56,795 bases of DNA from positions 1 through 56,795 of the forward strand of contig JASKKT010000009.1 in assembly GCA_030154025.1 (NCBI GenBank), written 5' to 3'. The notes beneath the pieces were generated by a model that saw only the letters and a program-made list of their open reading frames with translations, ran no database searches and was not told where the DNA came from. Below, piece after piece: positions 6,281 through 15,914 of the stretch. Position 1 is the stretch's first letter. The number at the start of each line of letters is the position of its first letter. The position numbers and the translations under genes are program-made. This DNA comes from Methanolobus sp. (GTDB lineage Archaea; Halobacteriota; Methanosarcinia; Methanosarcinales; Methanosarcinaceae).

Positions 6281-6790
6281 TCAGTCCGGCAGCATTATCA
6301 CTGTCGTATAATAGGCAGGCTCTCCGCTTTCATTTCTCTGGATGAAGGTATGCTCCTCTACAGGCATGAGTTCGCCACTCTTTGTCTTTACCCTGTATTT
6401 CAGGGTAAGCCCGTGAGCTCCCTCCCTGACGTTCTCAAGCAGTTCAAGCACTACACCGGGCAGCTCCTGCGGATCGATGATGTCCTCATATGTGAGTTCT
6501 CCCGAGCTGAAATCCTCAGGACTGTACCCCAGGGCGGATATCTTTGCCGAGATAAGCTTTACAGGTCCGTTCTTCAATGCAGGGCGCACAAGGGCTATCA
6601 CCGGGAGATGCCTGATAAGATCTTCCAGGGCCCTTGTATAAGTGTCATGCGAGGGCTTGCTGGCAATAGCTGTCTTTTCCTGCTTTTCTGACTGAAGGAA
6701 TGCACCTTCTTCCAGGTCGTTGGCTTCGATGTCCGATATTATTCCCCCTATACCATGTAGTATCTTATTTTCCCTAAGGATGCTGAATGA
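6281..6790 (-). pseudogene. PAS-domain sensor fragment without a canonical start
   Basis: The frame is open from 6790 to the stop at 6281. It reads as coding throughout: a helical N-terminal part (LRENKILHGIGGIISDIEAN), a linker rich in Glu/Lys, then a complete PAS fold (LISAKISALGYSPEDF, then YEDIIDPQELPGVV, then LTLKYRVKTKSGELMPVEEH). No ATG, GTG or TTG occurs before GTG 6601, which would cut off the helix preceding the PAS fold. There is no kinase or output domain. It looks like the remaining C-terminal sensor piece of a signal-transduction protein, or a small stand-alone PAS protein using an unusual start. No ligand can be predicted. Confidence 0.55.
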
Positions 6791-6936
6791 TCATTAATCT
6801 ATCATCCTCTGATTTAAGCCTGTCTTCAGAGAACGTGTTTGAGTATCGGAGACTTCCCATCGATTAAAAAAGCAAGTGAATTATTGTTGGAAGAGGGAAA
6901 GGTTCCTCTCCCTGTTCTGGAATCGTACCTGCGTCC

Positions 6937-7212
6937 TTATTTTATGAAAAGGCCGCACTTGCAGGAACCGCGCATCTCAAGATCCTTTGCCCTTGCGGCA
7001 CACGGACAGATGATCTTTTTGTCCTTCTCCTTGTCCCCGGTCCTTGGCTGACAGAAGCAGTACCATTCTCCAAACTGTCTCTTGTTGTTGCAGATACCTT
7101 TGACCGCAGTGGTGATAACATCCCAGTCACTGTTCATCTTGTATCCGCCGTTCTCTGCATTCTTCTTCGAGCGTTCATAGAATTGGGCTTCAAGTTCTCC
7201 GTCAAATCTCAT
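6937..7212 (-). CDS. Ferredoxin:thioredoxin (disulfide) reductase catalytic subunit-like protein
   Basis: 91-residue protein whose cysteine pattern is that of the FTR catalytic beta subunit: an isolated Cys (GICNNK), then YCFC, then ICPC about 16 residues later, then SCKCGLF near the C-terminus. In this family four Cys bind a [4Fe-4S] cluster and two form the active-site disulfide that reduces thioredoxin-like partners with electrons from ferredoxin; related ferredoxin:disulfide reductases are known in Methanosarcina. The ATG at 7210-7212 is chosen; a GTG nine bases upstream overlaps the GTGGT that may serve as ribosome-binding site. It lies downstream of fprA on the same strand, so a redox/oxygen-response role is likely. 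Confidence 0.85.
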   Translation of the reverse strand: MRFDGELEAQFYERSKKNAENGGYKMNSDWDVITTAVKGICNNKRQFGEWYCFCQPRTGDKEKDKKIICPCAARAKDLEMRGSCKCGLFIK

Positions 7213-7296
7213 TTTTACCACACTTTTTATTGTTTTTGTTTTACCGTTGTTCTATACTTTTACCATTATTGTATAATAATCCTGCCATGTCATAGG

Positions 7297-8508
7297 TCAG
7301 GATCTTGCCATATCCTTTGCTATCTCTGCAAGCCGGTGGCCGATGTCCCTGCACACTTTCAGGTCTTCCTTGAAGGGCCTGAACTTGACCTGCAGGCTTT
7401 CCATGGCAAGTTCATATCTTGCGGCTTCCATCTCTTTCTCCATGCCTTTGATCGCACCGCCGCCCCAGCCGTAGGACCCGAAAAGGAAGTACTTCTTATT
7501 CTTCGGATGAAGCCCTGTCATGTATGTCAGGAATCCGGCAACAGTGTAGAACATCTTATTGTTCATCGTAGGAGAGCCAATAGCAATGACCGGTGAGTCC
7601 ATGACTTCCTTCATTGTCATGCTCCAGTCGTTCTTTCTCAGATGGCGTACCCTTACTTCCACCCCTGCTTCCCTGACGCCCTCGGCGATCTCCATTGCCA
7701 GTTTCTCGGTGCTGCCCCACATGGTGTCATATATCACAAGCACCTTCTCCGCAGCCTCTCCCCGTGCCCACCGCCCATATGCTTCGATTATCCATGCCGG
7801 GTCTTTCCTCCATATGACCCCGTGGGCGGGAGCTATCATCTCTATACTTATCCCAAGCTCGTTTACCTTTTCGATGTATTTGAGTATCTGCGCACTGAAA
7901 GGCAACAGGATGTTGGCATAATAGATGGCTGCATCCTCCATGACATCATCCACCTCGTCATCAAAGCGCTTGGAAGTTGCCACATGCTGGCCGAACGCAT
8001 CGTTGGAGAAAAGTATCCTGTCTTCCTTAAGATATGTCTGCATGCTATCGGGCCAGTGGAGCATGGTGGCCTCTATGAACATCAGTGTCCTCTTTCCAAG
8101 GCTGATCTCATCCCCGGTCTTTGCCACCCGGAAGTTCCAGTTATCGCATCCCATCTCCTTATAGTGCTCGCATAGTCCTGATTTCCCCTTCGAGCTTGCG
8201 ATGAGAGTGGCATTCATGGCAATATCCATGATAGCAGGCAGTGACCCCGAGTGATCCATCTCTACATGGTTTGAAATGACGTAGTCGATCTTCGCAGGGT
8301 CAACGAGCTGCCTTATTCTCCTGAGCATCTCGTCCGAGAAGCTTGCCTTCACCGTATCGATAAGTGCTATCTTCTCATCGATTATCAGATATGCGTTGTA
8401 GCTTCCTCCCTTTGGGGTCTCGTATCCGTGGAAGTCCCGGAGGTTCCAGTCAACAACGCCTACCCAGTATATCCCTTTCGCTATCTCCAATGGCTCTAGC
8501 TCATCCAT
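7297..8508 (-). CDS. fprA: F420H2 oxidase / flavodiiron protein FprA
   Basis: 403-residue A-type flavoprotein. The N-terminal metallo-beta-lactamase-like domain carries the di-iron ligands in SNHVEMDHSGSLP (HxExD) plus later His/Asp; the C-terminal flavodoxin-like domain begins at VLVIYDTMWGSTEKLA, the FMN phosphate loop. Methanogen FprA reduces O2 to water with reduced coenzyme F420, protecting the cell from oxygen. The ATG at 8508 is chosen because GGGAG lies about 9 bases upstream; the in-frame GTG at 8532 lacks one. It follows the rubrerythrin-like gene with only ~20 bases between them, so the two are probably one oxygen-detoxification operon. Confidence 0.95.
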   Translation of the reverse strand: MDELEPLEIAKGIYWVGVVDWNLRDFHGYETPKGGSYNAYLIIDEKIALIDTVKASFSDEMLRRIRQLVDPAKIDYVISNHVEMDHSGSLPAIMDIAMNATLIASSKGKSGLCEHYKEMGCDNWNFRVAKTGDEISLGKRTLMFIEATMLHWPDSMQTYLKEDRILFSNDAFGQHVATSKRFDDEVDDVMEDAAIYYANILLPFSAQILKYIEKVNELGISIEMIAPAHGVIWRKDPAWIIEAYGRWARGEAAEKVLVIYDTMWGSTEKLAMEIAEGVREAGVEVRVRHLRKNDWSMTMKEVMDSPVIAIGSPTMNNKMFYTVAGFLTYMTGLHPKNKKYFLFGSYGWGGGAIKGMEKEMEAARYELAMESLQVKFRPFKEDLKVCRDIGHRLAEIAKDMARS

Positions 8509-8528
8509 AAACCCGTCTCCCTGTATAT

Positions 8529-9017
8529 TCACGTCTGCATCCTGAACTCAGTAGCAGCTTCGAGCAATTCATCTATTATTCTGTAGTGACCTCTCTCGGC
8601 AGCTGCAACATTCTCAAAGAAGGTCCTCTGCTCCTCATCATCTGTTCTTTTTGCCAGTTCGGTATAGAAATACTCGCTCTTGTGCTCAAACCTGAGGGCT
8701 GCCAGCAGTACGCCGATCTCCCCGAGTTTCTTTCCTGAGAACTCCTCTGTGAACGAAGCCTTGAACTCAGGATAGTTAAACTCCACCACTGGCGCCTTCT
8801 TTTGTTCCCTGTACTGGTGAAGGTACTCCGCGTGCTTCTTCTCCTCGTCAGCAAGGAACATGTAAAGGTCCTTGACAGTCGCATTGTCCATAGAGGAAGC
8901 TTCTTCCAGATAGTACTCTCTTCCTTCGTTTTCCAGTTCAATGGCCACGGCGATCGCCTCATCGACAGATCCGAGCCTATCCAGCTCGTCCGCTATTTCT
9001 TTTAATATGTCTTTCAT
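8529..9017 (-). CDS. Rubrerythrin/ferritin-like di-iron protein
   Basis: 162-residue four-helix-bundle protein. Two ExxH-type helices are visible: ELENEGREYYLEEA with DEEKKHAEYL in the first half, and FEHKSEYFYTELA with AAERGHYRIIDE in the second, giving the duplicated Glu/Glu-x-x-His di-iron ligand pattern of rubrerythrins. No C-terminal rubredoxin CxxC knuckle is present, so this is an erythrin-like short form. It probably reduces peroxide or stores/oxidises iron. The ATG at 9015-9017 is preferred (GGAG 8 bases upstream) over in-frame ATGs at 9023 and 9107. It is the first gene of the pair with fprA. Confidence 0.88.
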   Translation of the reverse strand: MKDILKEIADELDRLGSVDEAIAVAIELENEGREYYLEEASSMDNATVKDLYMFLADEEKKHAEYLHQYREQKKAPVVEFNYPEFKASFTEEFSGKKLGEIGVLLAALRFEHKSEYFYTELAKRTDDEEQRTFFENVAAAERGHYRIIDELLEAATEFRMQT

Positions 9018-9121
9018 GCTCATATCTCCGACAGGATGAACGGTATTGTCAACCAGATGCAGTTCAGTGTTTGTTTGTCTGCTTATGAACAAATCCCACT
9101 TATTCAAGCTATCAGAGTCAG

Positions 9122-9266: not shown

Positions 9267-9311
9267 TTGATTCCAGTATTTTAAAAGTATTATTTTGACA
9301 GAGGTAATGTG

Positions 9312-10415
9312 ATGGATAAAATCAAGATTGCAATTGCGGGAATTGGCAATTGTGCAAGCTCTCTGATCCAGGGTGTCGAGTACTATAGGAACAAAAATGA
9401 AAACGACTCCATAGGATTGATGCACTGGGATATCGGTGGTTACAGGCCTTCCGATATTGAGGTGGTTGCAGCCTTCGATATCGACATGAGGAAAGTGGGA
9501 AAGGATGTTTCGGAGGCTATCTTTGCACCGCCTAACTGCACTGCTGTGTTCTGCAGTGATATTCCCAAAACAGGCGTACTTGTAAAAATGGGCTGCACAC
9601 TCGACGGCTTCTCAGACCACATGAAGGATTTCGATGAGAAGAGGACCTTTGTGCCTTCAGGACAACCTGAAGCCACTAAGGAGGATATCGTCAAAGAGCT
9701 GAAAGACTCAGGTGCAGAGATATTACTTAACTATCTTCCGGTTGGCTCTGAACAGGCAACCCGCTTTTATATGGACTGCGCCCTTGATGCCGGTGTTGCA
9801 TGCATCAATAACATGCCTGTCTTTATAGCAAGTGACCCTGAGTGGGCTGCCCGGTTTGAAAAGAAGGGTATCCCAATAATTGGGGATGACATCAAGGCAC
9901 AACTGGGTGCCACCATCACCCACAGGACACTGGCTGACCTTTTCAATAAGCGTGGTGTGAAACTTGAGAGAACCTACCAGCTTAATACAGGTGGTAATAC
10001 TGATTTCCTGAACATGCTCAACCGCAGCAGGCTTGCCTCTAAGAAAACGTCCAAGACCGAGGCTGTACAGTCCGTGGTCGCACAGCGCCTGGACGATGAC
10101 AATATCCACGTCGGACCAAGCGATTACGTTCCCTGGCAGAACGATAACAAAGTCTGCTTCCTGAGAATGGAAGGCAAGCTCTTCGGAGACGTGCCCATGA
10201 ACCTGGAGCTGCGCCTTTCCGTTGAGGATTCCCCAAACTCGGCGGGTGTAGTGATCGATGCCATCAGGTGCTGTAAGCTTGCCCTGAACAGAGGTAACGG
10301 TGGAGTGCTTTACTCACCGTCCGCCTATTTCATGAAACATCCTCCCAGGCAGTTCACCGATGACCAGGCTCACAAGATGACCAGCGAGTTCATCCGCGGC
10401 GAGCGTGCAAACTGA
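9312..10415 (+). CDS. ino1: Inositol-3-phosphate synthase
   Basis: 367-residue myo-inositol-1-phosphate synthase of the archaeal/actinobacterial length. It converts glucose 6-phosphate to inositol 3-phosphate with bound NAD, supplying inositol for archaetidylinositol lipids. The NAD-binding start AIAGIGNCASSLIQGVEYY, the region around LNYLPVGSEQA, the catalytic-lysine neighbourhood GDDIKAQLGATITH, and NTGGNTDFLNM are family hallmarks. The ATG at 9312 has GAGGT 6 bases upstream; an in-frame GTG one codon earlier is less likely. DUF429 follows after 21 bases. Confidence 0.94.
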   Translation: MDKIKIAIAGIGNCASSLIQGVEYYRNKNENDSIGLMHWDIGGYRPSDIEVVAAFDIDMRKVGKDVSEAIFAPPNCTAVFCSDIPKTGVLVKMGCTLDGFSDHMKDFDEKRTFVPSGQPEATKEDIVKELKDSGAEILLNYLPVGSEQATRFYMDCALDAGVACINNMPVFIASDPEWAARFEKKGIPIIGDDIKAQLGATITHRTLADLFNKRGVKLERTYQLNTGGNTDFLNMLNRSRLASKKTSKTEAVQSVVAQRLDDDNIHVGPSDYVPWQNDNKVCFLRMEGKLFGDVPMNLELRLSVEDSPNSAGVVIDAIRCCKLALNRGNGGVLYSPSAYFMKHPPRQFTDDQAHKMTSEFIRGERAN

Positions 10416-10436
10416 AAGCTGGAGCAGGCTGCAAGC

Positions 10437-11270
10437 ATGATGTACACTGAAGGGCAGCGCCGGATATATGGTGTTGACTTCAGTGGCTCAAAGACAGCAT
10501 GCAGTAAGATATGGATAAGTGAAGGTATCGTCAATGACGGTATCCTTGACATCTCTGCCTGTTACCCCATATCGGAGATAGTCATAGGCGGGGCTAAGGA
10601 CCGTGATTCATGCCTGCATGCAATGCGGCATTTGATAAAGGGAAGCGGCAAAGGGATATTCGGCATGGATTTCCCTTTCAGCCTGCCTCATGAGCTGCTT
10701 TCTTCTGGGAATAGTCACCCTGAATGGAAGTCCTTTATAACTGATTTCCCCAGAAGGTATTCCTCAGCAGAACAATTCCGTGAGGAGATGAGGTCACTTG
10801 CTCCCGGCAATGAGCTTAAGCGCCTTACTGATGCAGAGGTCAAAGCTCCGTTCTGTGTGTACAACCTCCGACTCTACAGGCAGACATATTTCGGTATCTG
10901 TGAGGTGCTGGGACCTCTTGTGATCGAGGACTCGGCACGCGTCCTGCCCATGCAGGAGCCTGCCCATGATAAAGCCTGGCTCATCGAGGTATGCCCTGCC
11001 TCTACATTGAAAAAAGAAGGTCTATACATTCCGTATAAAGGCAAATCCTCACGTGAGTCCGAAGCAAGAAAGTACATCCTTGAGGAAATGCTGGACAGGG
11101 GGATCACTCTCTCCTCGTGCATAAGGGAAGCCGCCCTTAAGAACACCGACGGTGATGCCCTGGACAGTATAATTGCAGCCTTCGCGACATCAAAAGCTGT
11201 GATGCAACTGCATCTTTTGCGGGAATCGCTCCCGCAGATATATCTTACCGAAGGCTATACCTTTTTCTAA
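10437..11270 (+). CDS. DUF429 family protein (predicted RNase H-fold)
   Basis: 277 residues. The N-terminus IYGVDFSGSKTA, the mid-protein GIFGMDFPFSLP and the C-terminal DGDALDSIIAAFATS carry conserved acidic residues that resemble the scattered catalytic carboxylates of RNase H-like folds; this is the pattern of DUF429. The biochemical role is unknown, with a nuclease or nucleotide-related activity suggested for the family. It directly follows inositol-phosphate synthase and is probably co-transcribed, but no functional link is evident. Start is ATG 10437 (ATGATG), with a weak, distant GGAG upstream. Confidence 0.7.
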   Translation: MMYTEGQRRIYGVDFSGSKTACSKIWISEGIVNDGILDISACYPISEIVIGGAKDRDSCLHAMRHLIKGSGKGIFGMDFPFSLPHELLSSGNSHPEWKSFITDFPRRYSSAEQFREEMRSLAPGNELKRLTDAEVKAPFCVYNLRLYRQTYFGICEVLGPLVIEDSARVLPMQEPAHDKAWLIEVCPASTLKKEGLYIPYKGKSSRESEARKYILEEMLDRGITLSSCIREAALKNTDGDALDSIIAAFATSKAVMQLHLLRESLPQIYLTEGYTFF

Positions 11271-11291: not shown

Positions 11292-11846
11292 TCAGGTCTT
11301 GTCAGGCCTGCTCACACCGATTATATCATACAGGTCTGAAGGCTTCCGGATCACAGTGATATTCTCCATCTCCGCAAGTTTCTCGGTATTGGAAACATCG
11401 ATCTCCCTCATCTTCAGGTTGATGGTCTTTCCCTGGGGTGATATGGTCTGCACACTTCCCCTCCTCTGGTCCACTGCAAGTATGTAGATGGGGGTTTCAC
11501 CCTTTGCTGTCTGGGCAACTGCGTTTGTGACCAGGGTGTCTGCTATCCCATAGACGATCTTCGCAACGGTATTGGCAGTGGCAGGGGCAATGATAAGTGC
11601 ATCATAGTGGCCCACCTGCAGGGGTCCTACAATGAAAGGTGAGTTAGGTCCTCCCTCCTTCTTGAAATCGGGGAAGTCTTTCTGCAGGTCGCCCCACATG
11701 TGATACCATTTCAGGACCGTCTCTCCTTCTTTTGAAAGGAAGACCGCTATCTCAACATCGCCTCTCTTACTGATATCTGTCATGACGTCATACGTTTCCT
11801 TTATCAGGTCCCCTGAACCTGTTATTCCCCAGGCTATCTTCTTCAT
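11292..11846 (-). CDS. afpA: Archaeoflavoprotein AfpA
   Basis: 184-residue flavoprotein of the AfpA group within the flavin-decarboxylase-like (HFCD/UbiX/Dfp) fold. The N-terminal strand-loop KKIAWGITGSGDLIKETYDV binds FMN phosphate, and ALIIAPATANTVAKIVYGIADTLVTNA is the conserved PxxANT segment. In Archaeoglobus AfpA accepts electrons from a ferredoxin. Here it is the last gene of a unit that also encodes a ferredoxin, an iron-sulfur flavoprotein and an FNR-like reductase, so a role as a downstream electron carrier is likely; its final acceptor is unknown. Confidence 0.9.
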   Translation of the reverse strand: MKKIAWGITGSGDLIKETYDVMTDISKRGDVEIAVFLSKEGETVLKWYHMWGDLQKDFPDFKKEGGPNSPFIVGPLQVGHYDALIIAPATANTVAKIVYGIADTLVTNAVAQTAKGETPIYILAVDQRRGSVQTISPQGKTINLKMREIDVSNTEKLAEMENITVIRKPSDLYDIIGVSRPDKT

Positions 11847-11888
11847 CTAAAGTCTCCTAAATGTATTATTGATATTCTCCCGGACATG

Positions 11889-12587
11889 TCAGTACCCTAT
11901 AAGTGATTCCTTCCTGATCTTCAGGACCGTCACGCCCAGTGAGTGCAGCATCTCCATCATTGAGTCCACCATCGCCGGCGGCCCGCAAACGTAGAACTCC
12001 CTTGATGCAAAGTCCGGCAGCTCTCTTCTCACAAGAGTCTCGCTGATGCGGTCCCTGGCCCCTGTCCAGCTTTCTGAGGCTCTTGTCAGGGTTTGGAACA
12101 CCTTCAGGTGTGGGTTAACCCGGGTCATCTCTGATAACTCTTTCCAGAAGACCATGTCTTCCTCGCTCCTGTCACTGCAGATGAGCACCACGTCCGTGTC
12201 CAGTGCCATATCGCTACAATATTTACAGATGCTTCTCATAGGTGTGATACCAATCCCTCCGCTGAGCAGGGCGATCTTCTCATACTCTCCCTCATAGCTC
12301 ATTTTCCCGTAGGGGCCACTGATGTTGAAAGTATCTCCCTTTTTCATGGAATCCAATGCATCCGAGTACTCATGGCCGGTAAGTTTCTTTGTGAACTCCA
12401 GGTGGTCCTTTTCCGTAGGGCTGCTGGACAGGCTGAACGGTTTGCTGACGCTCTCGCCGTTGACATCAAGTGTTACCACAATGTACTGTCCCGCTTTATA
12501 ATCAAAATCCTCAGGCTTTCTGAACCTGAAGCTTTTGATATGTTCGCTGCGTCGGACAATCTCACTCACATGTGCCTGGAATTTCAA
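11889..12587 (-). CDS. FAD-dependent ferredoxin-NADP reductase-like oxidoreductase
   Basis: 232 residues. An N-terminal FAD-binding beta barrel contains RSEHIKSFRFRKPEDFDYKAGQYIVV and KPFSLSSSPTE (RxYS-like flavin motif), followed by a nucleotide-binding domain with LLSGGIGITPMRSI and the terminal YVCGPPAMVDSM. No 2Fe-2S domain is fused. It should pass electrons between a pyridine nucleotide and an iron-sulfur or flavin partner. The start is TTG 12587, with GGAG about 8 bases upstream overlapping the end of the Isf gene (5-base gap). The adjacent ferredoxin and flavoproteins are the obvious partners. Confidence 0.88.
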   Translation of the reverse strand: MKFQAHVSEIVRRSEHIKSFRFRKPEDFDYKAGQYIVVTLDVNGESVSKPFSLSSSPTEKDHLEFTKKLTGHEYSDALDSMKKGDTFNISGPYGKMSYEGEYEKIALLSGGIGITPMRSICKYCSDMALDTDVVLICSDRSEEDMVFWKELSEMTRVNPHLKVFQTLTRASESWTGARDRISETLVRRELPDFASREFYVCGPPAMVDSMMEMLHSLGVTVLKIRKESLIGY

Positions 12588-12592
12588 TATAC

Positions 12593-13219
12593 TTACTCCT
12601 GCTCTGCCTTCTTTATTAATAGTGTGGTTTCCATCAGTTTTTTCATTGTCCTGCGGAGGCTCCTCAGCCCGTCAGGGTCTTCAGACACCCCTTCGGCTCC
12701 CTTGTCCTTTGACCAGAAGGTCCCTCCCAGATTGGAGCCAAAAGACCCTCCTCCTATCGGTATCATTTCGCTGATAACATAAAAGTCATGTATGGTCCGG
12801 ATGGCAGGCTCCTGTCCTCCTATCCTGTCTCCTCCCACGGCTGCAGCAGCACCAACCTTGTTCATGAACACTTTCGGGTCACGGGCGACCACGGCCCTGC
12901 ACCTGTCCAGTATTGTCTTTGTCTGGGCGCTGAGTGTACCCTGGTAGACCGGAGTGCCTATTATCCAGGCATCAGCCCAGATCATTTTCTCATACAGCTC
13001 CACAAGGTCGTCCTTATGGATGCATCCCTGTTTGGTACGCACACAGTAGTCACAGTGGATGCAGAACTTCATGTCCTTCCCGCTTGCAGAGAAGTATTCG
13101 GTTTCAGCACCATATTTCTCCTGTGCATAGCGCAGTGCTTCGTTCACAATGTAGTCTGTGGCCTTCTTCCTCGGGCTGCCTGATATGCCAAGCAGCCGGA
13201 CAGCTGAACCTTCGGACAT
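12593..13219 (-). CDS. Iron-sulfur flavoprotein (Isf-type NADPH-dependent FMN reductase family)
   Basis: 208-residue flavodoxin-fold protein. LLGISGSPRKKATDYIV is the FMN phosphate loop. CIHCDYCVRTKQGC (CX2CX2CX6C) matches the compact cysteine motif that holds the [4Fe-4S] cluster in Isf of Methanosarcina thermophila. IIGTPVYQGTLSAQTK and the GAAAAVGGDRIGGQE segment are also typical. Isf takes electrons from ferredoxin and can reduce O2 or H2O2. It lies 19 bases after the ferredoxin gene, its likely electron donor. Confidence 0.9.
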   Translation of the reverse strand: MSEGSAVRLLGISGSPRKKATDYIVNEALRYAQEKYGAETEYFSASGKDMKFCIHCDYCVRTKQGCIHKDDLVELYEKMIWADAWIIGTPVYQGTLSAQTKTILDRCRAVVARDPKVFMNKVGAAAAVGGDRIGGQEPAIRTIHDFYVISEMIPIGGGSFGSNLGGTFWSKDKGAEGVSEDPDGLRSLRRTMKKLMETTLLIKKAEQE

Positions 13220-13238
13220 CTCACTCCTGTCTCCTTGA

Positions 13239-13430
13239 TCACTCGATACCTATTGATTCCGTGGGGCAGGCGTCAACACATATCCCGCACTCCACGCAAT
13301 CGTCAGGCCGGGCGATAACGGACTTAAGGTCTCCATTATCGTCTTCCTGAAGCTCTATCACGTTTGTCGGGCAGGCCTGAACGCATGCTCCGATGCCTTC
13401 ACATTTGCTTTTATCTACTTTTGCAGGCAC
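13239..13430 (-). CDS. Small two-cluster ferredoxin, first motif of 3Fe-4S type
   Basis: 63-residue ferredoxin. The second motif, CVECGICVDACP, is a complete CX2CX2CX3CP [4Fe-4S] site. The first, CEGIGACVQACP, has Ile where the second cysteine of the motif should be, a pattern seen in 7Fe ferredoxins whose first centre is [3Fe-4S]. Start is GTG 13430 with GGAGG 8 bases upstream. It sits between the cytochrome c gene (16-base gap) and the Isf gene, and is the natural soluble carrier of this redox unit. Confidence 0.92.
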   Translation of the reverse strand: MPAKVDKSKCEGIGACVQACPTNVIELQEDDNGDLKSVIARPDDCVECGICVDACPTESIGIE

Positions 13431-13446
13431 TACTATATCCTCCTTT

Positions 13447-14850
13447 TCATTGTTTTTTCTCCAGGTTGAGAAGTGTCAACAGTAAAGTCAGTGCTATCAC
13501 CGCGACAGCTGCCAGGGGAGCCGTGAAACCGGGTGTTTCAGCCTGAGCCTCCACAGGCATGTCAGGGTCATATATCCTGCCTGACGTCTGGACCATGCTT
13601 ATCACCGGTACTTCATGCACCCCTTCTCCGAAAAGGCGGTCCACCAGTTCCTGAGGCGCTGACATATATTTTAAGGTTGCAATCACAGTGACCGGATATG
13701 CCGTATTTTCCGGCAGGGTGAAAGTGTGCTCCTCGATAACTGTCTCTCTGGGCGCTATCCTGTTATCTGCAATGACCCTGTCCGCAAGCCAGAAGCTGAG
13801 TGTCTCGTTTCCTGCACTGTCCCCAAGCACGGTATTATACATCATGCCTGGTTCCATGCCCGGAGAGCTGTCCGCTTTTGCTGTGCTGTAGATGTTCTGT
13901 CCCTTGCCATCGGTGACTTCTACCTCAAGCCACAACTGGCGGATCTCGGAGACTCCCGTGGGCAGCATGTGGCCTGCACCTGAGTTGGTGATAGCTACCT
14001 CGATAGTGACATTGTTTCCCTTGTTTGCAGTCAGGGGTGCATCAAAGCTGAGAGTTGCGGCCCTTTGCAGCCTTTCGATAGCAAGCTTCCTTTGTTTCTC
14101 AGCTCCTAGCATCTCAGTTACGAATGCATTACCTCCTACCGCGCTGTGCAGTGAGATGTGTTCCCTCCTGACCGAGCTTGAGGCGGCTCTGCCGGGATTA
14201 GCCTTGAACTCGGTGATTCCCGGGCTCATGTGGCAGTCCTGACAGCTCACACCGTTCTGTCCGTAGTAGCTCTCTTTCCATGTGCTGTAGGTATCATCGA
14301 TCACAAGGCCGTTGACAGGATGACTTACCTGGTGGCACATGCCGCAGAACTCTGACTGCGTGTGAAGCTCCAGATACTCCGAAGCATGGTAAGCTGACTT
14401 CGAATCGTTGAATGGTCCCCATTTTATATTACCCGGACTGGCAATGAAAGGTGCATTGCCGGTGCCGTTACTGCCAGAGACCGTATGGCAGAAGTCACAT
14501 TGCACTCCCTCATGTGCGATCTCACTGAGCTGCGATCCGTCAGCAGGAGGTATCTCGCCGGCAAGCACGCCTATGGGAGTGTGACAGCGGGAGCAGAATT
14601 CATCGACCAGCCCCTCAGTGTCCGTGCTAGCTGCATGGAACTCCTGCTGGTAAAAGGGGTCAGTATAAGCATTCGCATGCATCGTTCCCTCCCACTGGTG
14701 ATGGATGATTGCATGGCACTGCTGGCATTTGCTGGCCGCTGTGAATTCCGATGAGGAATATTCTCCTGCAGGTGTGGGCTCTGCTGCACTCGTACAGCCT
14801 GCAAGTAATAAGAGTGCCATGATCGCGGTCAATATGGTGGTGGCTCTGAT
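13447..14850 (-). CDS. Secreted pentaheme cytochrome c with lipobox and PGF-type C-terminal anchor
   Basis: 467 residues from the proposed start. Five CxxCH heme motifs lie at about residues 42-46, 86-90, 118-122, 169-173 and 203-207, within a multiheme c554-like N-terminal half; the second half is a beta-rich domain (VTIEVAITNSGAGHMLPTG). The N-terminus is a signal peptide with a lipobox LLAGC (Cys19). The C-terminus has PGF, a ~17-residue hydrophobic segment and a Lys-rich tail, as in archaeosortase (PGF-CTERM) substrates. GGAGG at 14858-14862 is 7 bases before ATC 14850; the only upstream ATG (14937) would bury the signal peptide, and TTG 14832 is far from the ribosome-binding site. Outward-facing electron transfer is inferred. 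Confidence 0.88.
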   Translation of the reverse strand: MRATTILTAIMALLLLAGCTSAAEPTPAGEYSSSEFTAASKCQQCHAIIHHQWEGTMHANAYTDPFYQQEFHAASTDTEGLVDEFCSRCHTPIGVLAGEIPPADGSQLSEIAHEGVQCDFCHTVSGSNGTGNAPFIASPGNIKWGPFNDSKSAYHASEYLELHTQSEFCGMCHQVSHPVNGLVIDDTYSTWKESYYGQNGVSCQDCHMSPGITEFKANPGRAASSSVRREHISLHSAVGGNAFVTEMLGAEKQRKLAIERLQRAATLSFDAPLTANKGNNVTIEVAITNSGAGHMLPTGVSEIRQLWLEVEVTDGKGQNIYSTAKADSSPGMEPGMMYNTVLGDSAGNETLSFWLADRVIADNRIAPRETVIEEHTFTLPENTAYPVTVIATLKYMSAPQELVDRLFGEGVHEVPVISMVQTSGRIYDPDMPVEAQAETPGFTAPLAAVAVIALTLLLTLLNLEKKQ

Positions 14851-14964
14851 AGTGTTTCCTCCATTTTGGTATGGTGTGCCATGCAGCAGATGCATCTCGC
14901 AAGGCCAGTGCCTGATGCAATGGACAATTAAGATCAAAGAGGACCCCAGGGTCCTCCTCTGTCC

Positions 14965-15378
14965 TTATTTAAGCATTCTCAGTGCATGCCTGCAGGCTGC
15001 AACAGCAGGTGCTCCGGAAGTGATGAAAATCACATCCATCACTTCCATGATCTCTTCTTTTGTCGCTCCGTGATTGAGGGCGCTCTTCATCTGGGCAACG
15101 ACGCAGGTTTCACATTGTTTTGAAGCTACCACGGCCAGTGCCATCAGGATCTTTGTCTTTGCAGGAAGCACACCGTCCTTGAGGATCTTACTGTTGCACA
15201 TGTTGTACTTGTGGAGGAACTCCGGTTCCAGCTCGTCGAGGGTCTCCAGTATATACGGTGTGAACCCAAGTTTCTCGGACATGTCTCCGAGCAGTCCTTC
15301 ATGCCTTGTTTTCTCCCCGCTTATTATTCTGTCCTTATTTCCTTTCTCATCTTCGTATCTCTTTGCGTTTCCACACAT
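14965..15378 (-). CDS. Carboxymuconolactone decarboxylase / AhpD-like protein
   Basis: 137 residues, all-helical AhpD-like fold. The active-site region [24 protein letters not shown] has the CxxC of the alkylhydroperoxidase group, but Gln is found where AhpD has the proton-relay His, so peroxidase activity is uncertain; thiol-disulfide exchange is more likely than decarboxylation. The ATG at 15378 is preferred because AAGGAG lies 9 bases upstream; a TTG at 15387 is directly next to that site. It precedes the cytochrome gene by 114 bases and follows the DUF2180 pair, suggesting a shared redox-stress unit. Confidence 0.83.
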
Positions 15379-15409
15379 ATCTTCCAACTCCTTGCCTGAG
15401 AATGAACGT

Positions 15410-15625
15410 TCAGTCGAATCCGTCCTCTATGGTATGGTCCAGGCAGTAGCTGCACATGAGCCGGGGCAGCCCCTTAGGAAGCCTTTCCACATGAGGCGGC
15501 TTCCCGACTGACACCGGCAGCTCAAATTCCCTGGCATGTTCCATACATAGTCCTTTACCGCATACGATACACACACATACGGATTCAGTGTCCTTTCCTG
15601 TTTCCATGCAATCATAGCATTTCAT
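15410..15625 (-). CDS. DUF2180 cysteine-rich zinc-ribbon protein (copy 2)
   Basis: 71 residues with [20 protein letters not shown] and MCSYC motifs, i.e. paired CxxC knuckles plus a His, the arrangement of DUF2180 proteins of methanogens. It probably binds one or two zinc ions; the function is unknown. AGGTGA at 15634-15639 directs the ATG at 15625 (or 15628), and the ribosome-binding site overlaps the stop of the upstream paralogue, so the two are translationally linked. Confidence 0.8.
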
Positions 15626-15637
15626 CATGTATATCAC

Positions 15638-15877
15638 CTAGTAGTTCTCCTTCAGGGCCTCGTGGCACGGCATGCACAGTATTTTCTTCATATGCTGCAC
15701 ATCCTCGTATTTGCATTCGACTCCCATGCCGCATTTTAGCCTGATGCTGTATTCCCCTTCCCATACGGGGGTGTCTTCCCGTACCAGGTGTTGTTTACAT
15801 ACTCCTCTTCCGCAGACTATACAGATAGCCACAGTATCAGTGTTTTTGTCATTTTTTGAGCATTCATAACATTTCAT
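15638..15877 (-). CDS. DUF2180 cysteine-rich zinc-ribbon protein (copy 1)
   Basis: 79 residues, paralogous to the next gene downstream: MKCYECSKNDKNTDTVAICI then VCGRGVCKQH correspond position by position to the second copy. It has an extra C-terminal segment with LKCGMGVEC and LCMPCHEAL. The pattern suggests metal (zinc) binding. It is the first gene of the redox unit running to afpA, with a TATA-like element at about 15903-15914. Start ATG 15877 has GTGATC upstream; the GTG at 15886 belongs to that site. Confidence 0.8.
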   Translation of the reverse strand: MKCYECSKNDKNTDTVAICIVCGRGVCKQHLVREDTPVWEGEYSIRLKCGMGVECKYEDVQHMKKILCMPCHEALKENY

Positions 15878-15902
15878 GCTGATCACTTCTTTATGATATG
15901 TC

Positions 15903-15914
15903 TGTTATATCAGA
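15903..15914 (-). promoter_or_regulatory. Putative promoter of the DUF2180-to-afpA redox unit
   Basis: On the minus strand CTGATATAACAG contains a TATA-like GATATAAC about 30 bases upstream of the first DUF2180 start, giving a very short leader. No other TATA-like element is as well placed; evidence is sequence only. Confidence 0.38.

Follow-up and report, generated by a model that had tools for sequence, protein, structure and literature searches.

An eight-gene redox island of Methanolobus as a probable form of the Methanosarcinales oxygen-defence operon

The archaeon Methanolobus sp. (assembly GCA_030154025.1) carries on contig JASKKT010000009.1 a cluster of redox genes that includes a multihaem cytochrome c, and the locus raises the question of whether such a cluster serves to export electrons from the cell or to protect the cell from oxygen. 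The window analyzed here is the whole stretch of 56,795 nucleotides. Within it, eight open reading frames (ORFs) lie on the minus strand at 11292-15886 with short gaps between them, in the order DUF2180-DUF2180-AhpD-cytochrome-ferredoxin-Isf-FNR-AfpA. A preliminary description made from the sequence had left both possibilities standing, one being a chain from cytoplasmic reductant to an extracellular acceptor and the other a chain for peroxide or oxygen defence. A role in defence against oxygen or reactive oxygen species (ROS) is highly probable for the island, and it is likely that the island, with the mechanism proposed below, represents the Methanolobus form of an oxygen/ROS-defence operon of the Methanosarcinales.

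The island and its oxygen-defence neighbors

Domain calls from Pfam and NCBIfam profile searches, together with the ORF calls, bear out the eight genes, the single strand and the short gaps of the preliminary description. The set reaches further than the extent given there, to 7297, and includes two more genes on the same strand, for a rubrerythrin-family diiron protein and a flavodiiron protein. The ten members are as follows.

15638..15886, minus strand: DUF2180 protein a, 82 amino acids, small and Cys-rich (PF09947, 81.1 bits, cut-off 22.2); the island's first gene in relatives
15410..15637, minus strand: DUF2180 protein b, 75 amino acids (PF09947, 75.7 bits, cut-off 22.2)
14965..15387, minus strand: AhpD/CMD-family protein with CXXC (PF02627, 64.4 bits)
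13447..14850, minus strand: pentahaem c-type cytochrome with Sec signal and putative PGF-type C-terminal anchor (five CXXCH; Cytochrome_C554 profile)
13239..13430, minus strand: ferredoxin, 2x4Fe4S-type by profile (Fer4 matches)
12593..13219, minus strand: Isf-type iron-sulfur flavoprotein (PF03358 (FMN_red), 111 bits; CX2CX2CX6C motif)
11889..12587, minus strand: stand-alone FNR-type FAD/NAD(P)H reductase (PF00970 and PF00175)
11292..11846, minus strand: AfpA archaeoflavoprotein (TIGR02699, 255 bits, cut-off 192; 3wis/4mwg, E 1.9e-21)
8529..9107, minus strand: rubrerythrin-family diiron protein without a rubredoxin domain (PF02915, 40 bits)
7297..8532, minus strand: flavodiiron protein (FprA/FpaA, predicted O2 reductase; ODP and flavodoxin domains; ligand motif HVEMDH)

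Of 186 genomes from the order, 102 encode an orthologue of the cytochrome. Inspection of about 100 loci reveals that the order DUF2180-DUF2180-AhpD-cytochrome-(ferredoxin)-Isf-(FNR)-AfpA beside mer-fpoF recurs across the family Methanosarcinaceae, with relatives that include Methanolobus, Methanomethylovorans, Methanococcoides, Methanohalophilus, Methanohalobium and Methanosarcina. The two DUF2180 copies are paired in almost all loci; the ferredoxin gene is absent in Methanococcoides and some others, and both ferredoxin and FNR are absent in Methanosarcina. The set is therefore no chance arrangement, and the co-occurrence that the preliminary description proposed as a check holds across the family.

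Genes for oxygen defence recur in or beside these loci. A superoxide reductase (SOR) gene sits between AhpD and the cytochrome in Methanosarcina, in another Methanosarcinaceae genus and in anaerobic methanotrophic archaea (ANME) of the ANME-2 group. In Methanococcoides, Methanohalobium and others, FNR and AfpA flank a two-domain rubrerythrin, and a TusA-DsrE-NifS-IscU/thioredoxin-reductase fusion block, possibly an iron-sulfur (Fe-S) repair unit, follows directly 3' of the cytochrome gene in further loci (L178, L181, L183, ANME-2 L059, L202). SOR, rubrerythrin, diiron or flavodiiron genes were found in 17 of 20 island regions of ~15 kb versus 2 of 40 arbitrary regions of 20 kb from the same 20 closed genomes (Fisher test, 4e-10), and as these genomes are related, the value overstates independence, such that recurrence in distant lineages weighs more. 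In Methanoperedens, the cytochrome gene and a flavodiiron gene point away from each other, 52-213 bases apart. Among the Methanophagales, one locus reads Isf-AfpA-cytochrome-catalase-peroxiredoxin (L205), and another combines the cytochrome with a NapC-like cytochrome, a rubrerythrin-like protein, SOR, ferritin and flavodiiron proteins (L219). Among bacteria, rubrerythrin and a regulator of the Fur/PerR family lie close to the cytochrome in one deltaproteobacterial locus and in one further locus. The link between the cytochrome and oxygen-defence genes is recurrent, not universal, and its extension across domains is the part of the locus most worth following.

The oxygen-defence possibility of the preliminary description also agrees with a published system. 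Locus L071, which we take to be Methanosarcina acetivorans C2A, shows an array like MA4664/MA3734-3743 with one five-haem cytochrome, consistent with MA3739. These M. acetivorans genes have been described as a putative oxidative-stress operon in which MA3743 is homologous to F420H2 oxidase (PMC3729527, Isom et al. 2013, citing Lessner and Ferry 2007). Operon and island share, in the same order, two DUF2180 genes, AhpD, the cytochrome, Isf and AfpA beside mer, and diiron and flavodiiron proteins occur in both. In contrast to the operon, the island lacks SOR and has ferredoxin and FNR in addition, and two genes on the opposite strand part its diiron/flavodiiron pair from the rest. The earlier remark that no system of this exact composition was known proved too strong, in that the eight-gene composition is a genus-level feature but the operon family has been described. 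That is to say, the island is a variant of a described operon, with ferredoxin and FNR, a missing SOR, a cytochrome with a probable AUC start and a stem-loop as its peculiarities. The fpaA-rlp-rub genes of Methanothermobacter, as outlined in a citing paper (Karr 2010, cited in PMC3729527), resemble the extended set in placing an F420H2 oxidase in an O2-defence operon; the operon outlined there is MsvR-regulated and differs in having no cytochrome, Isf or AfpA. MA3736 is not mentioned in the main text of PMC5615479.

Proposed roles of the cytoplasmic members

F420H2, ferredoxin or NAD(P)H would be the electron source of the cytoplasmic proteins. As known from these protein families, flavodiiron proteins convert O2 to water, peroxide and superoxide are substrates of rubrerythrins and SOR, and ferredoxin donates electrons to Isf and to AfpA, the former also reacting with O2 and H2O2. 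In the island, the flavodiiron protein would remove O2, the diiron protein and Isf would remove peroxide, and the AhpD-like CXXC protein, the DUF2180 proteins and AfpA may deal with damaged thiols or Fe-S centers. Ferredoxin and FNR would form the local electron-supply module of this lineage, feeding Isf and AfpA. The cytochrome would act outside the membrane, anchored through its PGF-type C-terminus, and its donor would be the methanophenazine pool and not cytoplasmic ferredoxin directly, because it lies outside the membrane and the island holds no membrane-spanning partner. The NapC/NrfH-type gene beside the L219 orthologue fits this membrane-pool route.

The profile matches upheld the preliminary labels for the two DUF2180 proteins, the CMD/AhpD domain, the pentahaem cytochrome c, the ferredoxin, FNR and AfpA, and qualifications apply to three proteins. 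No NCBIfam Isf model matches 12593..13219, and the Isf call combines an FMN-binding flavodoxin-like (FMN_red) fold with the compact CX2CX2CX6C motif, which is present in 79 of 80 orthologues. The AhpD-like protein keeps its CXXC in 94 of 94 orthologues; AhpD peroxidases carry His at +4 after this motif, whereas the island protein has Gln there, as do the common orthologue motifs. The first cluster site of the ferredoxin reads C-x5-C-x3-C, with Cys II replaced by I, S or V in 41 of 41 orthologues and the second site complete, and given the missing Cys II the protein is probably of the 3Fe-4S/4Fe-4S type. The closest solved relatives of the FNR-type reductase are NADH-cytochrome b5 reductases and sulfhydrogenase gamma, and DUF2180 protein a is probably metal-binding.

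The diiron protein has two ExxH motifs in 66 of 67 orthologues and differs from true rubrerythrin in that the rubredoxin domain is absent while the diiron domain is present. Its gene overlaps that of the flavodiiron protein by 4 bases. The latter protein joins an ODP beta-lactamase domain and a flavodoxin domain with the diiron ligand motif, as in FprA; its nearest solved relatives include Moorella FprA (1ycf, E 1.5e-126) and F420H2 oxidase (6frm, E 1e-88), and its nearest NCBIfam model is NO-reductase (nitric oxide reductase) flavorubredoxin. The pair lies ~2.2 kb from AfpA in the window, across the following stretch.

9309..11270, plus strand: inositol-3-phosphate synthase and a DUF429-type ORF, not members of the set, which split its two halves in this genus

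In Methanolobus, the pair is found 2-3 kb from AfpA on the same strand, whereas in Methanosarcina these two ORFs do not separate AfpA from the diiron gene and the pair is contiguous with AfpA. Downstream of the flavodiiron gene, 6281-6601 encodes a small stand-alone PAS-domain protein, a possible redox or oxygen sensor.

The pentahaem cytochrome

The cytochrome has exactly five CXXCH motifs, and practically every intact orthologue keeps them. Its C-terminal domain is beta-rich and carries an N-x-GAGH-x-x-P-T-G region that does not vary, and the protein also has an invariant set of His residues. Its AlphaFold model (pLDDT 78.6) matches the fold of the pentahaem cytochrome c552 of Thermochromatium tepidum (5ze8) over the full length (TM 0.57/0.67), and MccSep and cytochrome c554 are further fold or profile relatives. 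Both the window protein and c552 combine five haems with a beta-sandwich domain carrying a GHxxPTG region; they differ in sequence (~20% identity) and in the archaeal PGF anchor of the window protein. Two assignments suggested by these relatives were rejected: the alignment places Val and other non-redox residues at the selenocysteine position of MccSep, and the matches to NrfA or NrfH are weak, with scores far under the cut-offs. The syntenic orthologue MA3739 (L071) likewise has five haems and a PGF/PGL-type C-terminus, and differs from the window protein, at ~44% identity, in that the latter has a probable non-AUG start and an unconserved lipobox-like LAGC. Close bacterial relatives of the cytochrome, with ~43-47% identity, occur in Thermoleophilia, Gaiellales, Carboxydothermus and Chloroflexi (L222, L227, L229, L230, L234), a similarity that suggests transfer between the domains.

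The PGF-type C-terminus noted in the preliminary description was recovered as a PGF motif, a transmembrane helix and a basic tail, here ending in KKQ, and the motif and transmembrane end are conserved in most orthologues. Surface anchoring by this route is plausible because the genome encodes archaeosortase A (ArtA, 278 bits). Lipoprotein anchoring through the LAGC lipobox was rejected, as the motif is found only in the window and a few close relatives and is unconserved.

The open frame of the cytochrome extends to a TTG at 14937, and the proposed start is an ATC at 14850 that follows a GGAGG. Among 64 scored orthologues, a few of which may be wrongly called, the homologous codon is ATG in 21, GTG in 16 and ATT, ATA or ATC in 26, and several orthologues have no ATG, GTG or TTG able to preserve the signal peptide. 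AUC, AUU or AUA codons after a good ribosome-binding site appear to be the start in ~25 orthologues from several genera (including L038, L039, L040, L042-L046, L097, L107 and L112). On this comparative evidence, the window cytochrome probably starts at the AUC at 14850. The 114-base gap at 14851-14964, given in the preliminary description, holds if this start is used, as the relatives support. With such starts, standard gene-calling programs would overlook the signal peptide or cut it short.

As for its function, we tentatively propose that the cytochrome is a separate, dispensable surface scavenger or reductase of an oxidant, fed by methanophenazine. A broader claim, about which we are more doubtful, is that it founds a family of membrane-pool-fed extracytoplasmic peroxide, superoxide or O2 reductases in methanogens, ANME archaea and anaerobic bacteria, with rare AUU, AUA or AUC starts in Methanolobus and its relatives. 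If the cytochrome does scavenge oxidants outside the membrane, strict anaerobes, ANME archaea among them, would have a layer of defence at their surface.

Weighing electron export and other alternatives

Several observations count against oxygen defence. Bacterial loci L222, L229 and L234 are among several without a nearby ROS gene, three Methanohalophilus-type genomes have none of the listed O2 genes within 15 kb, and the sole SOR of the window's own genome is on contig 66 and not in the island. The activities of Isf and AfpA in this island are assumed by analogy. The redox regulator MaMsvR did not bind those promoters of the M. acetivorans operon that were tested (PMC3729527), and the 4.1-fold rise of the MA3739 transcript on anthraquinone-2,6-disulfonate (AQDS) fits defence and export alike.

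Extracellular electron transfer, in which ferredoxin, Isf, FNR and AfpA would feed a surface cytochrome that reduces metals, humics or a partner cell, can point to that same induction, to an 80% increase of MA3739 in an mmcA mutant, and to the signal peptide and PGF anchor of a five-haem protein. The M. mazei cytochrome has also been reported in the surface/membrane fraction, with a suggested complex with flavoproteins and iron-sulfur flavoproteins (cited in PMC6962339), so that the idea of the preliminary description had been raised before. Yet deletion of MA3739 impaired neither AQDS reduction (PMC6703419) nor electron uptake from Fe(0) (PMC10989991), and deletion of MM_0633, from its description probably the M. 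mazei counterpart, left growth, direct interspecies electron transfer and cathode uptake unaffected (PMC6962339); the title of the thesis from which this mutant comes includes protection from oxygen radicals. Species without the cytochrome are equally informative. DUF2180, AhpD, Isf, FNR and AfpA are retained in place in three of them (L129, L131, L145), and some Methanosarcina keep the DUF2180-AhpD and Isf-AfpA parts without it, sometimes at two places. In two species of the window's genus (L091, ~6916-7330; L092, ~7136-7460), cytochrome remnants retain the signal peptide and tail with the haem motifs deleted, while the remaining island genes are under purifying selection (ratio of nonsynonymous to synonymous substitution rates, Ka/Ks, mostly 0.03-0.18). 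It follows that the cytoplasmic module functions in the cytochrome's absence, and this speaks against a single chain ending in the cytochrome. A looser functional link likely remains, as Cyt, Isf, FNR and AfpA were lost together from one locus of a Methanohalophilus-like genus (L130).

Topology and gene context point the same way, in that the island has no membrane-spanning protein that could carry electrons across and the neighbors are ROS genes, not genes of extracellular electron transfer. MmcA (MA0658) is likewise an extracytoplasmic multihaem cytochrome of Methanosarcinaceae, but it has seven haems, is OTR-related, lies beside rnf and is needed for AQDS, whereas the window cytochrome has five CXXCH and neighbors that are mer/fpoF and redox genes; an MmcA-type assignment was rejected. 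Export as the primary function was rejected in view of the knock-out literature, the cytochrome-loss species and the topology, and the reading as a whole is very improbable. A multihaem cytochrome that several groups tested for surface electron transfer without finding a phenotype is placed by its neighbors in oxygen defence, a caution that archaeal multihaem cytochromes do not always serve extracellular respiration.

The cytochrome could instead be an extracytoplasmic enzyme for NO, hydroxylamine, nitrite or a sulfur oxyanion that is co-regulated with oxidative-stress genes. Its kinship with c552, c554 and MccSep, the weak NrfA/NrfH-region matches and the NapC-like gene at L219 are in keeping with this, and flavodiiron proteins, as a family, can reduce NO too, which accords with the nearest NCBIfam model of the island's member. 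The protein nevertheless falls under the cut-offs for NrfA and related families, nitrogen-cycle genes were not seen in the loci, and SOR, catalase and rubrerythrin are not NO-specific, leaving such an enzyme unlikely.

Whether the island is a single unit turns in part on a structure between AhpD and the cytochrome.

14936..14959, minus strand: GC-rich stem-loop followed by U-rich sequence, with a 10-pair stem directly after AhpD

In most loci of Methanolobus, Methanomethylovorans and Methanohalophilus, a stem-loop with differing stem sequences lies 5-18 bases past the stop codon of AhpD, in the place that SOR takes in Methanosarcina. It may be a terminator, an attenuator or an mRNA stem, could end or attenuate the upstream transcript, and bears directly on co-transcription across the AhpD-cytochrome gap. 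A sigma-70 promoter scan, a model inapplicable to archaea, gave hits no commoner than in shuffles. Two unrelated neighbors, a DUF2180-AhpD unit and a cytochrome/flavoprotein unit transcribed separately beside mer, would account for the stem-loop, for the DUF2180-AhpD and Isf-AfpA parts found at different places in some Methanosarcina, and for the AhpD-SOR-cytochrome of ANME-2 without Isf-AfpA nearby; as many genera, and the predicted M. acetivorans operon too, retain the combined order, this arrangement is quite improbable. Beside these loci, mer itself shows a peculiarity in one Methanosarcina genome (G151), which has two mer genes (C1:345513-346490 and C1:3669897-3670874), one 85% identical to that of the window and the other, genus-typical, 81%.

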